Below are positions 47,544 through 52,430 of a DNA stretch of 64,000 nt, one piece after another. Location: positions 1-64,000 of the forward strand of contig JAXHVO010000103.1 of the NCBI GenBank assembly GCA_034189135.1, given 5' to 3'. A program made the translations under genes and the position numbers. The notes beneath the pieces are model-generated. The model saw only the letters and a program-made list of their open reading frames with translations, searched no databases and was not told the origin of the DNA. How positions within the stretch are numbered: position 1 is the first letter of the stretch; the number at the start of each line of letters is the position of its first letter. This DNA comes from Thermodesulfobacteriota bacterium (GTDB taxonomy: Bacteria; Desulfobacterota; Desulfobacteria; Desulfobacterales; JAUWMJ01).

Positions 47544-48780
47544 ATGAATGATACTTTGTTTCTGCAATTTTATAACCGAACCAAAAGTGGTTACTTTGAC
47601 CTGTACAACGGTTTTCAGACACCTATGACCTGTGTAAAAACAAAGGAGATTTTTACTGGACCGAGCATGAGATAGACCGCACCAAATGGTACTTGAATGA
47701 AACATATGAAAATAGAAAATTACCTATTAATAAAGGCACCGTCTATATCAGCGCCATCTATATGAATCATTTGTATCAATCCTACATATGGGCAAAAGAA
47801 TATCCGGAAATCCGTTTTATCGTAGGTGGACCCATTGCCGCAGAAAGGCGAATCGATAAAAACCGCTGGCATCCGGTTTATGTGAAGGTTGACAGTTATG
47901 ATATGTTGCCATCGAATTTGAAATTAACCGGCCAAAGTGTAGAGGACTGGTTTGAAGTTCCAAATTTTTCCGGCAAATGGAGGGTGGATGTGCCCGAATT
48001 TGTACCGGATGACAGCCGTATTTACTTTTCCTACACCTTGGATAACGGGTGTTATTGGCGTAAATGCGTATTCTGTAACATTGCCCTTCATGCAGGGGAA
48101 GTATTCAGGAAAAGAAAGGATATGAACTATGAGTTTGAAACTATGGCACATAATGGACATAAGATAGTGCGTTTAAATACAGGATCTATCACCACCAAAT
48201 ACATCAGAGAAGTACTCGTTGAACTACCCCGGGACCATGACTTGGAATACCGACTGTTTGTAAGACCTGCCAAAGCGGAAAATAGGGCCTTAAAGGAAGT
48301 ATTACACAAGGGTGGTCACAAATTTCCCAAACTGGTATTGGGTTTTGGTATGGAGTTCCCACCAATCGTATGTTGGAATATATCGGCAAAGGATGTAATA
48401 CAGATGAAGTATTGGAATTTCTTCGTATCTGTCATGAAAATAGAATACACATTAATGCGAACTTCATATTGGGTTGGAACAATTTGATCCAGGATGATAT
48501 TAAAGAATTAGAAAGTTTCATGGACCGTGTACCTGAAAATTCGATTACGACTTTTCAAATGAGATGGCTGTTTGCTCATCCACACACCACGGTCCATGAC
48601 ACCTATAAGGGAAAAGCGGTCAGATTGGGACCATTTTATGAGGGTTTTCGCACGATCATAAACGAAGAGCAAATTCAGTTAAACAAACAAGCCGGAGATA
48701 TTATTAACCAATATAAGGACATCAAACATTACAAACTCGAAGGTATGGTAAATATCAGGAAACATCTGGAAAAGAATTGA
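47544..48780 (+). pseudogene. Radical SAM protein gene broken by two frameshifts
   Basis: ATG 47544 (GGAAGG upstream) opens ..LQFYNRTKSGYFDLYNGFQ; near 47620 the homologous reading moves to another frame (..YDLCKNKGDFYWTEHEIDR..), and near 48355 it moves again to ..NRMLEYIGKGCNTDEVLEF... Joined, the product is about 410 residues with a B12-binding-like N-terminus, the Fe-S motif GCYWRKCVFC (CX4CX2C) and the usual ..RMLEYIGKG.. barrel segment. No other gene nearby shows such damage, so real decay is likelier than poor sequence, but sequencing error is not excluded. Confidence 0.75.
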
Positions 48781-49986: not shown

Positions 49987-50499
49987 ATGAATAAAAACAC
50001 AGAGGAAGTACTACAAGGATTAAAAACAGCCATGGAGGCAGAGCTGACCGGCCATGAGTTTTACAAAAATGCCGCTCAAACCACCGCTGACCCAGTTGGG
50101 AAAGAGACCTTCTCCCGCATGGCCGAAGAGGAGATCGGCCACTTCAACTATCTGAGACATCAGTACAAATCCGTTCTGGAAAAAGGTGAGTATGACTTTA
50201 CCAAAAAGCTGCTAAAAAAAGATCATCAACATGCGGAAAGTCCGATCTTCAGTGATGAGATAAAAAGAAGGATCAAGGACAGTCATTTTGAAGTCAGTGC
50301 ACTGACCATTGGCATGAAATTGGAATTAGATGCCATGAGATTTTACCGGGCTTGTGCGGAAAAGGCTGACGATGAGGAGGTAAAAACGCTTTATAATGAA
50401 TTGGCTGACTGGGAAACAGATCATTATCGCGCCTTTGAGCAGCAACTGAATATGCTGAAAGAAGACTACTTTCAGGCAAATAATTTTGTTCCCATGTAA
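49987..50499 (+). CDS. Rubrerythrin-like ferritin-fold di-iron protein
   Basis: 170 residues, a four-helix bundle without a rubredoxin domain. Ligand motifs: Glu in AMEAELTGHEFYK, ExxH in EEEIGHFNYL, Glu in KLELDAMRFYRAC and the second ExxH-like WETDHYRAF. Family members reduce peroxide or handle iron in anaerobes. GGAAAGGAAAG precedes the ATG. Stands alone, convergent with hgcB. Confidence 0.85.
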   Translation: MNKNTEEVLQGLKTAMEAELTGHEFYKNAAQTTADPVGKETFSRMAEEEIGHFNYLRHQYKSVLEKGEYDFTKKLLKKDHQHAESPIFSDEIKRRIKDSHFEVSALTIGMKLELDAMRFYRACAEKADDEEVKTLYNELADWETDHYRAFEQQLNMLKEDYFQANNFVPM

Positions 50500-50603: not shown

Positions 50604-50903
50604 TTAGCAACAACCACCTGTTTCAGCAGAACCACAGCTAGCATTTTCTTTGCCTTTTATCCAGACCTGGATAATATAGGAGGCTCAACCTACACCAGGA
50701 CTGACTTCTATTGCATGGGTAGGACAGTTATTCACACATGCCCCGCACTCCATGCAGGCGTTAAAGTCGATAATTGCCGCTTTTCCCTGCCTGATCTCAA
50801 AAACATGGTGGGGGCATACTTCGGTACACAAACCACACCCGATGCATTCCTCCCGGTTGAGTATCAGTGACGAAACATCGTCTAGGTATCTTATATCTTC
50901 CAT
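50604..50903 (-). CDS. hgcB: HgcB ferredoxin of mercury methylation, probable selenoprotein (TGA = Sec73)
   Basis: 99 codons if TGA 50687-50685 is read through; 72 if not. Two 4Fe-4S motifs: CIGCGLCTEVCP (20-31) and CMECGACVNNCP (50-61). After ..EVSPGVG comes TGA, then in the same frame ASYIIQVWIKG.. and a terminal Cys98-Cys99 before TAA. HgcB proteins are about 95 residues, with a conserved Cys near 73 and a C-terminal Cys pair, and reduce HgcA during Hg(II) methylation. Here the Cys73 codon is TGA, followed by a SECIS-like hairpin. It starts 22 bp after hgcA with AGGAAAA upstream. A nonsense mutation is the alternative. Confidence 0.85.
50652..50684 (-). promoter_or_regulatory. Candidate bacterial SECIS element in hgcB
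   Basis: Immediately after the TGA, the minus strand folds as a 7-bp stem UUAUCCA/UGGAUAA (50657-50674) closed by the loop GGUC. A lower GCCU/AGGC pairing (50681-50684 with 50652-50655) is separated by an asymmetric internal loop. The first loop G is 18 nt past the UGA, within the range for bacterial SECIS. E. coli fdhF, as I recall it, has the same GGUC loop at 18 nt plus one. Confidence 0.75.
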
Positions 50904-50925: not shown

Positions 50926-52134
50926 TTAAAATGCCGAATAGATCCAGAAACCTGTTGATATTACCAAAGCGATTAACTGTACAGGGATGAACCTTTTCAT
51001 CTCCTTTTCAACACCGGAGGGTGAGGTAAAGGGGGTGGCGCCGGTAAAATTCATGGACAGATAGGAGCTTATGGCCATCACCAATAAAAACAGACCGATA
51101 AAGGCCGTAATCCCATGAATGGACGATGAAATTGACAGAAATAAAAGCGCGGCAAACACAATTCCGCATAGGAGACCTTTTGCGGCAAACTCTCTAAATG
51201 GGATATAGGGCAGCAGTGCGGGGGTAATGACTGCACCGGAAATAATTCCCACCAAAAGCGCCAGGATAGACACCATTCCCCTTTCAAAAGCACTTGAAAA
51301 GGAAAAGAAGCCCGGCCCGAAACCGGACAGAATAATCAAAACCATTGAGGCTAGCAAAGCCGGCTTGAGGACCGTTTTCAATTCAACCGGGGTGAGAATC
51401 AGCCTTTCAATAAAAGTGAAGGTAACCATTCTCATCTTTTTATCGGCCTTTCTATTGTTTTTAACAAAAGCGGGAATGTCTTTTGCCCTGACAGGGCCGA
51501 ATACCACTTTAAAGCCGGATTCTTTTTTTACCTTTCCGGCAGTCACTCCGGTTGCACCCAGTTGTGGAACGATCACCCGTTTATGGTCAACCACTTTTTC
51601 CAGGGAACATCGTTTTATTCTTTTAACCAGTTCTCCAGTGGAAAAGGTTCCTTTTCCGGCAGCACACCAGACATTTACCCCGCCGGTATCCAGAACAAGA
51701 ATCCAGGCATCCATATACTCCAGCTCCCGCCTCAGGTGATCAAAGGTCAGTTTGAAATTTGCGGTAACCAGGACCTCTGAAGCTTTGTCAGGGTTTCCCA
51801 CACAATAAAGACCGGGTGCCACTTTGTAATTGTGCCTGCCAATACCGCTTCTTACCACCAGGGTGGATAGAATATCACTTTTATCCGGTTTGGTTTTTAC
51901 CTTGGGAACAAAACCGGTATCGGTGAAAACAAAATCTTCCACAAACGAGCCAATGATATACCCCGGCTTTTCATGATCGGCAAAAACATTCTTTGGTCCA
52001 ATGCCGCCATCGGTCCCTGCATCATCCATTTCTGGCATGATTGAAACCCCGGTGGATTCAAGCCTAGTGTCACAGCCCTCGTTGCTGCTGCAATCAGACC
52101 CACAGCCACATCCGGTATCTAATGGTTCTTTCAA
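50926..52134 (-). CDS. hgcA: HgcA, corrinoid methyltransferase of mercury methylation
   Basis: 402 residues. The diagnostic cap-helix motif is present: Asn154-Val-Trp-Cys157-Ala-Ala-Gly-Lys161, where Cys157 ligates cobalt in cobalamin. About 235-400 holds five TM segments. HgcA transfers a methyl group to Hg(II), with HgcB as electron donor. The start is TTG 52134, 6 nt after CAGGGAG. The N-terminal ~60 residues form an extension with six cysteines in the first 21 (DTGCGCGSDCSSNEGC), unusual for the family and possibly metal-binding. Follows the ArsR-type gene by 14 bp. Confidence 0.95.
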   Translation of the reverse strand: MKEPLDTGCGCGSDCSSNEGCDTRLESTGVSIMPEMDDAGTDGGIGPKNVFADHEKPGYIIGSFVEDFVFTDTGFVPKVKTKPDKSDILSTLVVRSGIGRHNYKVAPGLYCVGNPDKASEVLVTANFKLTFDHLRRELEYMDAWILVLDTGGVNVWCAAGKGTFSTGELVKRIKRCSLEKVVDHKRVIVPQLGATGVTAGKVKKESGFKVVFGPVRAKDIPAFVKNNRKADKKMRMVTFTFIERLILTPVELKTVLKPALLASMVLIILSGFGPGFFSFSSAFERGMVSILALLVGIISGAVITPALLPYIPFREFAAKGLLCGIVFAALLFLSISSSIHGITAFIGLFLLVMAISSYLSMNFTGATPFTSPSGVEKEMKRFIPVQLIALVISTGFWIYSAF

Positions 52135-52148
52135 ATTCAGCTCCCTGT

Positions 52149-52430
52149 TTATAATTTCGACACATACTTTTTGAATTGATTCAATACATCAAAATCGACA
52201 CAGTAACACGTTTTTGGTCCTTCAATTTCACCATGGACAATACCTGATTCTTTAAGCAGCTTAAGGTGTTGGCTGATGGTCGACTGGGAAAAGGGGAAAA
52301 TATTCACAATTTCTCCACATACACAAGAATTGATTTTTATTAAATGCTCCACAATCTTAACCCTGGTGGGATGTCCCAGCGCCTTGAAAATTTTGGCGAG
52401 TGTATCTGCATCCATTTTAAGTTTCGGCAT
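52149..52430 (-). CDS. ArsR/SmtB-family repressor upstream of hgcAB
   Basis: 93 residues, one winged-helix domain: ..IFKALGHPTRVKIVEHLI.. (13-30), the metal-sensing-like Cys pair in SCVCGEIV (35-42) and recognition helix ..FSQSTISQHLKLLKESGIVHG... Later cysteines (..KTCYCVDF..) may also sense thiophilic metals. First gene of arsR-hgcA-hgcB with GAGGTAAG upstream. Likely controls the operon from the dyad at 52645-52667, responding to arsenic, mercury or another metal (inference). Confidence 0.9.
   Translation of the reverse strand: MPKLKMDADTLAKIFKALGHPTRVKIVEHLIKINSCVCGEIVNIFPFSQSTISQHLKLLKESGIVHGEIEGPKTCYCVDFDVLNQFKKYVSKL

Follow-up and report, generated by a model that had tools for sequence, protein, structure and literature searches.

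This locus raises a simple question about decoding. In the window analysed here (the whole stretch of 64,000 nucleotides), the gene for the mercury methylation ferredoxin HgcB carries a TGA codon at position 73, where homologs carry a cysteine, and the question is whether this codon ends the protein or is read as an amino acid, and if so, as which one. An earlier interpretation, made from the DNA letters without database searches (the sequence-only reading), had proposed selenocysteine (Sec).

The hgcB gene and its reading frame

The gene occupies positions 50604..50903 on the minus strand. It starts with ATG at 50903, and its codons run from 50903 to 50607, 99 in all including TGA73 (50687-50685), before the TAA at 50606-50604. 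Translation of the minus strand bears out the sequence-only reading in these particulars: the TGA is in frame at codon 73 and is followed by 26 sense codons, the last two of which encode Cys-Cys, then by TAA, for a product of 99 residues. The read-through protein (MEDIRYLDD...PGVG-U-ASYIIQVWIKGKENASCGSAETGGCC) matches the NCBIfam model NF040864 with 124.4 bits over its full length (model positions 1-93 of 93; curated equivalog cut-off 99 bits) and features two CxxCxxCxxxCP motifs, the conserved, TGA-encoded residue 73 and cysteines near the C-terminus. The full-length match above the cut-off and the motif residues, together with the adjoining hgcA gene, identify the gene as hgcB.

The hgcA gene (50926..52134, minus strand, with a proposed TTG start) lies 22 bases upstream of hgcB. 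Its product matches NF040863 with 430.2 bits (cut-off 275 bits), contains the NVWCAAGKG motif and shows no in-frame TGA across the whole translation, which makes it a Cys form. It is itself located 3' of a gene for an ArsR/SmtB-family regulator on the same strand (52149..52430; NF033788, 72.6 bits, cut-off 55). On the other side, a gene for a rubrerythrin/ferritin-like protein (49987-50499) is convergent with hgcB. At 47693-48780 there are two overlapping plus-strand open reading frames of 264 and 136 amino acids in different frames, which look like a single gene split by a frameshift, possibly one for a radical-SAM/B12-binding protein.

A standard ORF caller ends hgcB at TGA73 and returns 72 amino acids only, as would be the case if the codon were a true stop and the product a 72-residue ferredoxin lacking the C-terminal helix and the Cys tail. 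Such a product, however, would have lost both residue 73 and the C-terminal Cys98-Cys99 pair (50607..50612, minus strand), which can be reached only by read-through of the TGA and corresponds to Cys94/Cys95 of the ND132 protein, and both features are needed for methylation in ND132 (PMC7305189). Termination at codon 73 would also leave the conservation of the frame beyond the TGA, described below, unexplained, and we consider it very improbable.

Codon 73 and the downstream hairpin in related genes

In order to place codon 73 in a wider context, the window gene was compared with 105 other hgcB loci from genomes of the order and from GTDB species genomes; all counts refer to loci rather than independent species, as some genomes were fetched twice. 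The residue following GVG is encoded by TGC, TGT or TGA in every one of the 105 other loci. Codon 73 is TGA in 40 genes (the window gene and 39 related loci) and TGC or TGT in the remaining 66, and the window's TGA73 (50685..50687, minus strand) aligns with this strictly conserved cysteine (GVG-C/U). The alignment and the search for further TGA73 genomes that the sequence-only reading had called for thus both came out in its favor, and so did the comparison of the downstream frame, whose lack of conservation it had named as evidence against itself: the continuation is conserved in the TGA homologs, reading UA[AST]YIIQVWIKGKENASCG...CC in most of the Sec-form loci. Carriers of the Sec form include metagenome-assembled genomes (MAGs) of Desulfobacula, Desulfotignum, Desulfobacterium and Desulfamplus as well as the isolate Desulfocicer vacuolatum DSM 3385 (L103). 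Among 20 further fetched regions, some of which duplicate earlier loci, TGA73 is found in 18, including members of families f8, f21, f27, f34 and f51. Order-wide tallies of TGA mix positions, as in locus L032, where the TGA lies near the gene end while codon 73 is TGC. Two of the Sec-form loci, L086 and L061, come from one MAG, which therefore carries two Sec-hgcB copies.

Downstream of the TGA lies a SECIS-like hairpin with a lower and an upper stem (50652..50681, minus strand). The upper stem with its loop (50657..50674, minus strand; TTATCCA-GGTC-TGGATAA in DNA) forms UUAUCCA-GGUC-UGGAUAA when read from 50674 to 50657, while the lower stem is weaker, with about 3-4 pairs. The hairpin and its GGUC loop are thus present as the sequence-only reading had claimed, but not immediately after the TGA, since the fold begins a few bases further on and the loop 17 nt after the codon. 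This GG-loop element shortly 3' of the TGA is invariant in the Sec forms: ATTATCCA-GGNN-TGGATAA is fixed in 40/40 genes except for the final two loop bases, whereas both stem arms together occur in none of the 66 Cys genes. An 18-mer stretch of this kind is not expected to occur by chance in the window. The apical hairpin has a mean energy of -6.3 kcal/mol in the Sec forms versus -3.2 kcal/mol in the Cys forms.

The conservation extends to positions at which the protein places no demand on the nucleotide. Codons 77, 78, 79 and 82 show zero synonymous variation in the Sec genes and are the only conserved degenerate codons to do so; other conserved codons of the same genes vary synonymously, and the Cys forms vary at these four. 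Because frozen and varying codons are contrasted within the same genes, relatedness is controlled for. At residue 80, whose codon falls under the loop, 38 of the 40 Sec forms have Val and 2 have Gly, while 37 of 40 YIIQ-type Cys forms have Thr or Ser there, a difference suggesting that the protein has been shaped by the RNA element at this position. The two genes with Gly at residue 80 (L067 and L086) carry a GGGC loop in place of GGUC.

Taken individually, the hairpin is inconspicuous. Folding of the window sequence alone gives a non-significant z of -1.3, with 21 of 200 shuffles folding equally well, and in a synonymous shuffle of one gene, a weak test, 6% of the draws fold as well. The lower stem has no more covariation than its shuffles do, and the upper stem, being invariant, shows none. 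A search of Rfam returned no SECIS match for the hairpin. As the single-sequence fold is unremarkable, the case for a hairpin beyond chance is a comparative one, made across 40 genes.

The same comparison bears on the quality of the sequence itself. The window derives from a single assembly (4.63 Mb in 140 contigs, 95.5% complete, 0.59% contamination) and is known from assembled sequence, which would allow for a sequencing error at a codon that is really TGC or TGT, or for a pseudogene created by a real nonsense mutation. The TGA with its intact, conserved continuation nevertheless recurs in dozens of separate assemblies, that of the isolate Desulfocicer vacuolatum DSM 3385 among them, and neither error nor decay would bring with it a hairpin frozen at synonymous sites. 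We deem this explanation extremely improbable.

To follow the history of the Sec form, a tree of HgcA and HgcB without an outgroup root was built from 54 sequences after removal of columns 73 and 80. One branch parts the Sec from the Cys rows with a support of 100/99, and a single change is obtained in 200/200 bootstrap trees, which fits a Sec form of HgcB that arose once. The occurrence of the Sec form in several families, in combination with the single Sec clade, suggests that some lateral transfer of hgcAB has taken place. The window's genus includes two more genomes, both only about 75% complete, and no hgcA was found in either.

Selenocysteine machinery of the source genome

Profile matches in the source genome identify selA (604 bits) and selD (379 bits). 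Two proteins exceed the selB cut-off, with 375 and 304 bits, and there are two tRNA-Sec genes, each with a UCA anticodon and a score above the tRNA-Sec cut-off. With selA, selB, selC and selD all encoded, the objection from missing machinery, which the sequence-only reading had itself raised, falls away. Across the relatives, all 45 genomes searched for selA have it, whether their HgcB is a Sec or a Cys form, and tRNA-Sec occurs in 25 of 27, again with either form of HgcB. Since the machinery is also found in genomes with Cys-HgcB, it constitutes necessary but not specific evidence.

The two SelB-like proteins of the source genome (selB/tRNA-Sec loci L010, L011, L022 and L023) share only 29% identity. 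The weaker tRNA-Sec (53 bits) adjoins the second selB on contig C62, which may be a contaminant, and the gene following this pair encodes a protein resembling a 2-hydroxyacyl-CoA-dehydratase-type double-cubane protein. The C62 selB and its divergent tRNA-Sec look like a candidate second Sec-insertion system. The selD gene (L018, also contig C62) contains an in-frame TGA, and SelD is probably a selenoprotein itself, as is known from other bacteria.

The divergent tRNA-Sec-like gene next to the second SelB-like gene could be taken to mean that TGA73 is decoded as one of the standard amino acids, such as Trp, or Cys delivered by another tRNA. Both tRNA genes, however, carry the UCA anticodon and exceed the tRNA-Sec cut-off, the TGA substitutes for Cys only, the hairpin is SECIS-like and stop usage is normal in the other genes of the window; we give this reading very low credence. 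Based on the TGA homologs, the absence of synonymous change in the hairpin and the full set of Sec genes in the genome, we strongly infer Sec insertion at codon 73, in support of what the sequence-only reading had claimed. The window's hgcB very probably encodes a functional HgcB selenoprotein, with Sec inserted at UGA73 by means of the SECIS hairpin in place of the conserved Cys73.

Possible role of Sec73 and relation to known systems

In the proposed mechanism, UGA73 would be decoded by SelB with Sec-tRNA-Sec(UCA), steered by the bacterial SECIS hairpin just 3' of it, and translation would continue to the TAA to give a 99-residue ferredoxin with a C-terminal helix and a Cys-Cys tail. For the Cys form of ND132 it was shown that the Cys73Ala exchange abolishes methylation and that loss of both C-terminal cysteines lowers it by 95% (PMC7305189), in agreement with the requirement for these residues given in the sequence-only reading. 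A structural model proposes that mercury is brought to the corrinoid by the Cys pair, which then passes methylmercury on to Cys73 to be released, so that residue 73 is the acceptor of the methylmercury product and not the methylating nucleophile (PMC7305189). By analogy, Sec73 might take methylmercury (or mercury) from the C-terminal Cys pair and then release it; selenium, in the form of selenolate, would bind mercury more tightly and could speed or steer the transfer, or slow the release. A chemical role of Sec73 in mercury handling is a hypothesis, within which its action as a stronger nucleophile or mercury ligand is plausible.

HgcAB has no settled physiological purpose, and an ArsR-family regulator precedes hgcA here. 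Sec might therefore be inserted in an HgcAB that, in this clade, mainly serves another soft metal or metalloid, with Sec73 doing likewise. Both HgcA and HgcB, on the other hand, score above the equivalog cut-offs curated for the proteins of mercury methylation, and we regard a principal role outside mercury as unlikely.

Strains with Sec-HgcB are widespread in the Desulfobacteraceae and related families, and standard gene callers cut their hgcB at residue 72, before the essential residue 73 and the Cys-Cys tail. As a consequence, a large group of sulfate-reducing methylators appears to have a broken or short HgcB. Provided that Sec is inserted at position 73, these organisms need selenium to form methylmercury, and the process relies on a residue that is a stronger mercury binder than Cys. 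It is conceivable, though we put it forward only tentatively, that Sec-HgcB strains differ from Cys-HgcB strains in the kinetics of methylation or methylmercury release and in selenium dependence; the amount of methylmercury that a whole clade of sulfate reducers produces would then vary with the supply of selenium.

The sequence-only reading had taken Sec-HgcB to be unreported. Sec-containing HgcB and HgcA were, however, already described by Haft and Gwadz (2023; J Bacteriol, PMC9879109), according to two later papers. A 2026 review citing that work lists "Mercury methylation ferredoxin HgcB" (NF040864, motif GVGU, WP_250697400.1) and also HgcA with the motif CU (PMC13188914), and a 2024 paper cites it for HgcA/HgcB homologs as possible selenoproteins (PMC11588087). 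As far as these accounts of the original go, Sec-HgcB is already known, and the reading is correct but not new. In the literature searched, no experiment proves the presence of Sec in HgcB. The present analysis adds the SECIS-like hairpin that is frozen in the Sec forms, the replacement of Thr/Ser by Val under the loop, a tree that fits a single origin and the occurrence of the Sec form in several families.

Compared by family and motif only, the window protein shows no difference from the published Sec-HgcB as listed in the review, belonging to the same family and carrying U at the same GVG-U position. With Sec-HgcA (NF040863, motif CU) it shares the pathway and the kind of recoding, while the window's own HgcA lacks an in-frame TGA. 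In four loci of the comparison set (L039, L048, L055 and L057), the HgcA frame contains a TGA that precedes NVWCAAGKG by exactly 107 residues and itself follows Cys in three loci and CysSer in the fourth, and HgcB is a Cys form in each case; these HgcA genes are candidates that fit the published CU selenoprotein. HgcB of ND132 (Pseudodesulfovibrio/Desulfovibrio) has in common with the window protein the dicluster ferredoxin, residue 73, the C-terminal Cys pair and the adjoining hgcA, but has a Cys codon at position 73 instead of TGA. The Cys forms of the present set are without the hairpin and mostly carry Thr/Ser at residue 80, where the Sec forms have Val. Finally, the likeness to the SECIS of E. 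coli fdhF, also noted in the sequence-only reading, holds: both elements present a GGUC loop, closed by an A-U pair, shortly after the UGA, at a distance of 17 nt in the window's hgcB and 18 nt in E. coli fdhF, although the stem sequences differ.
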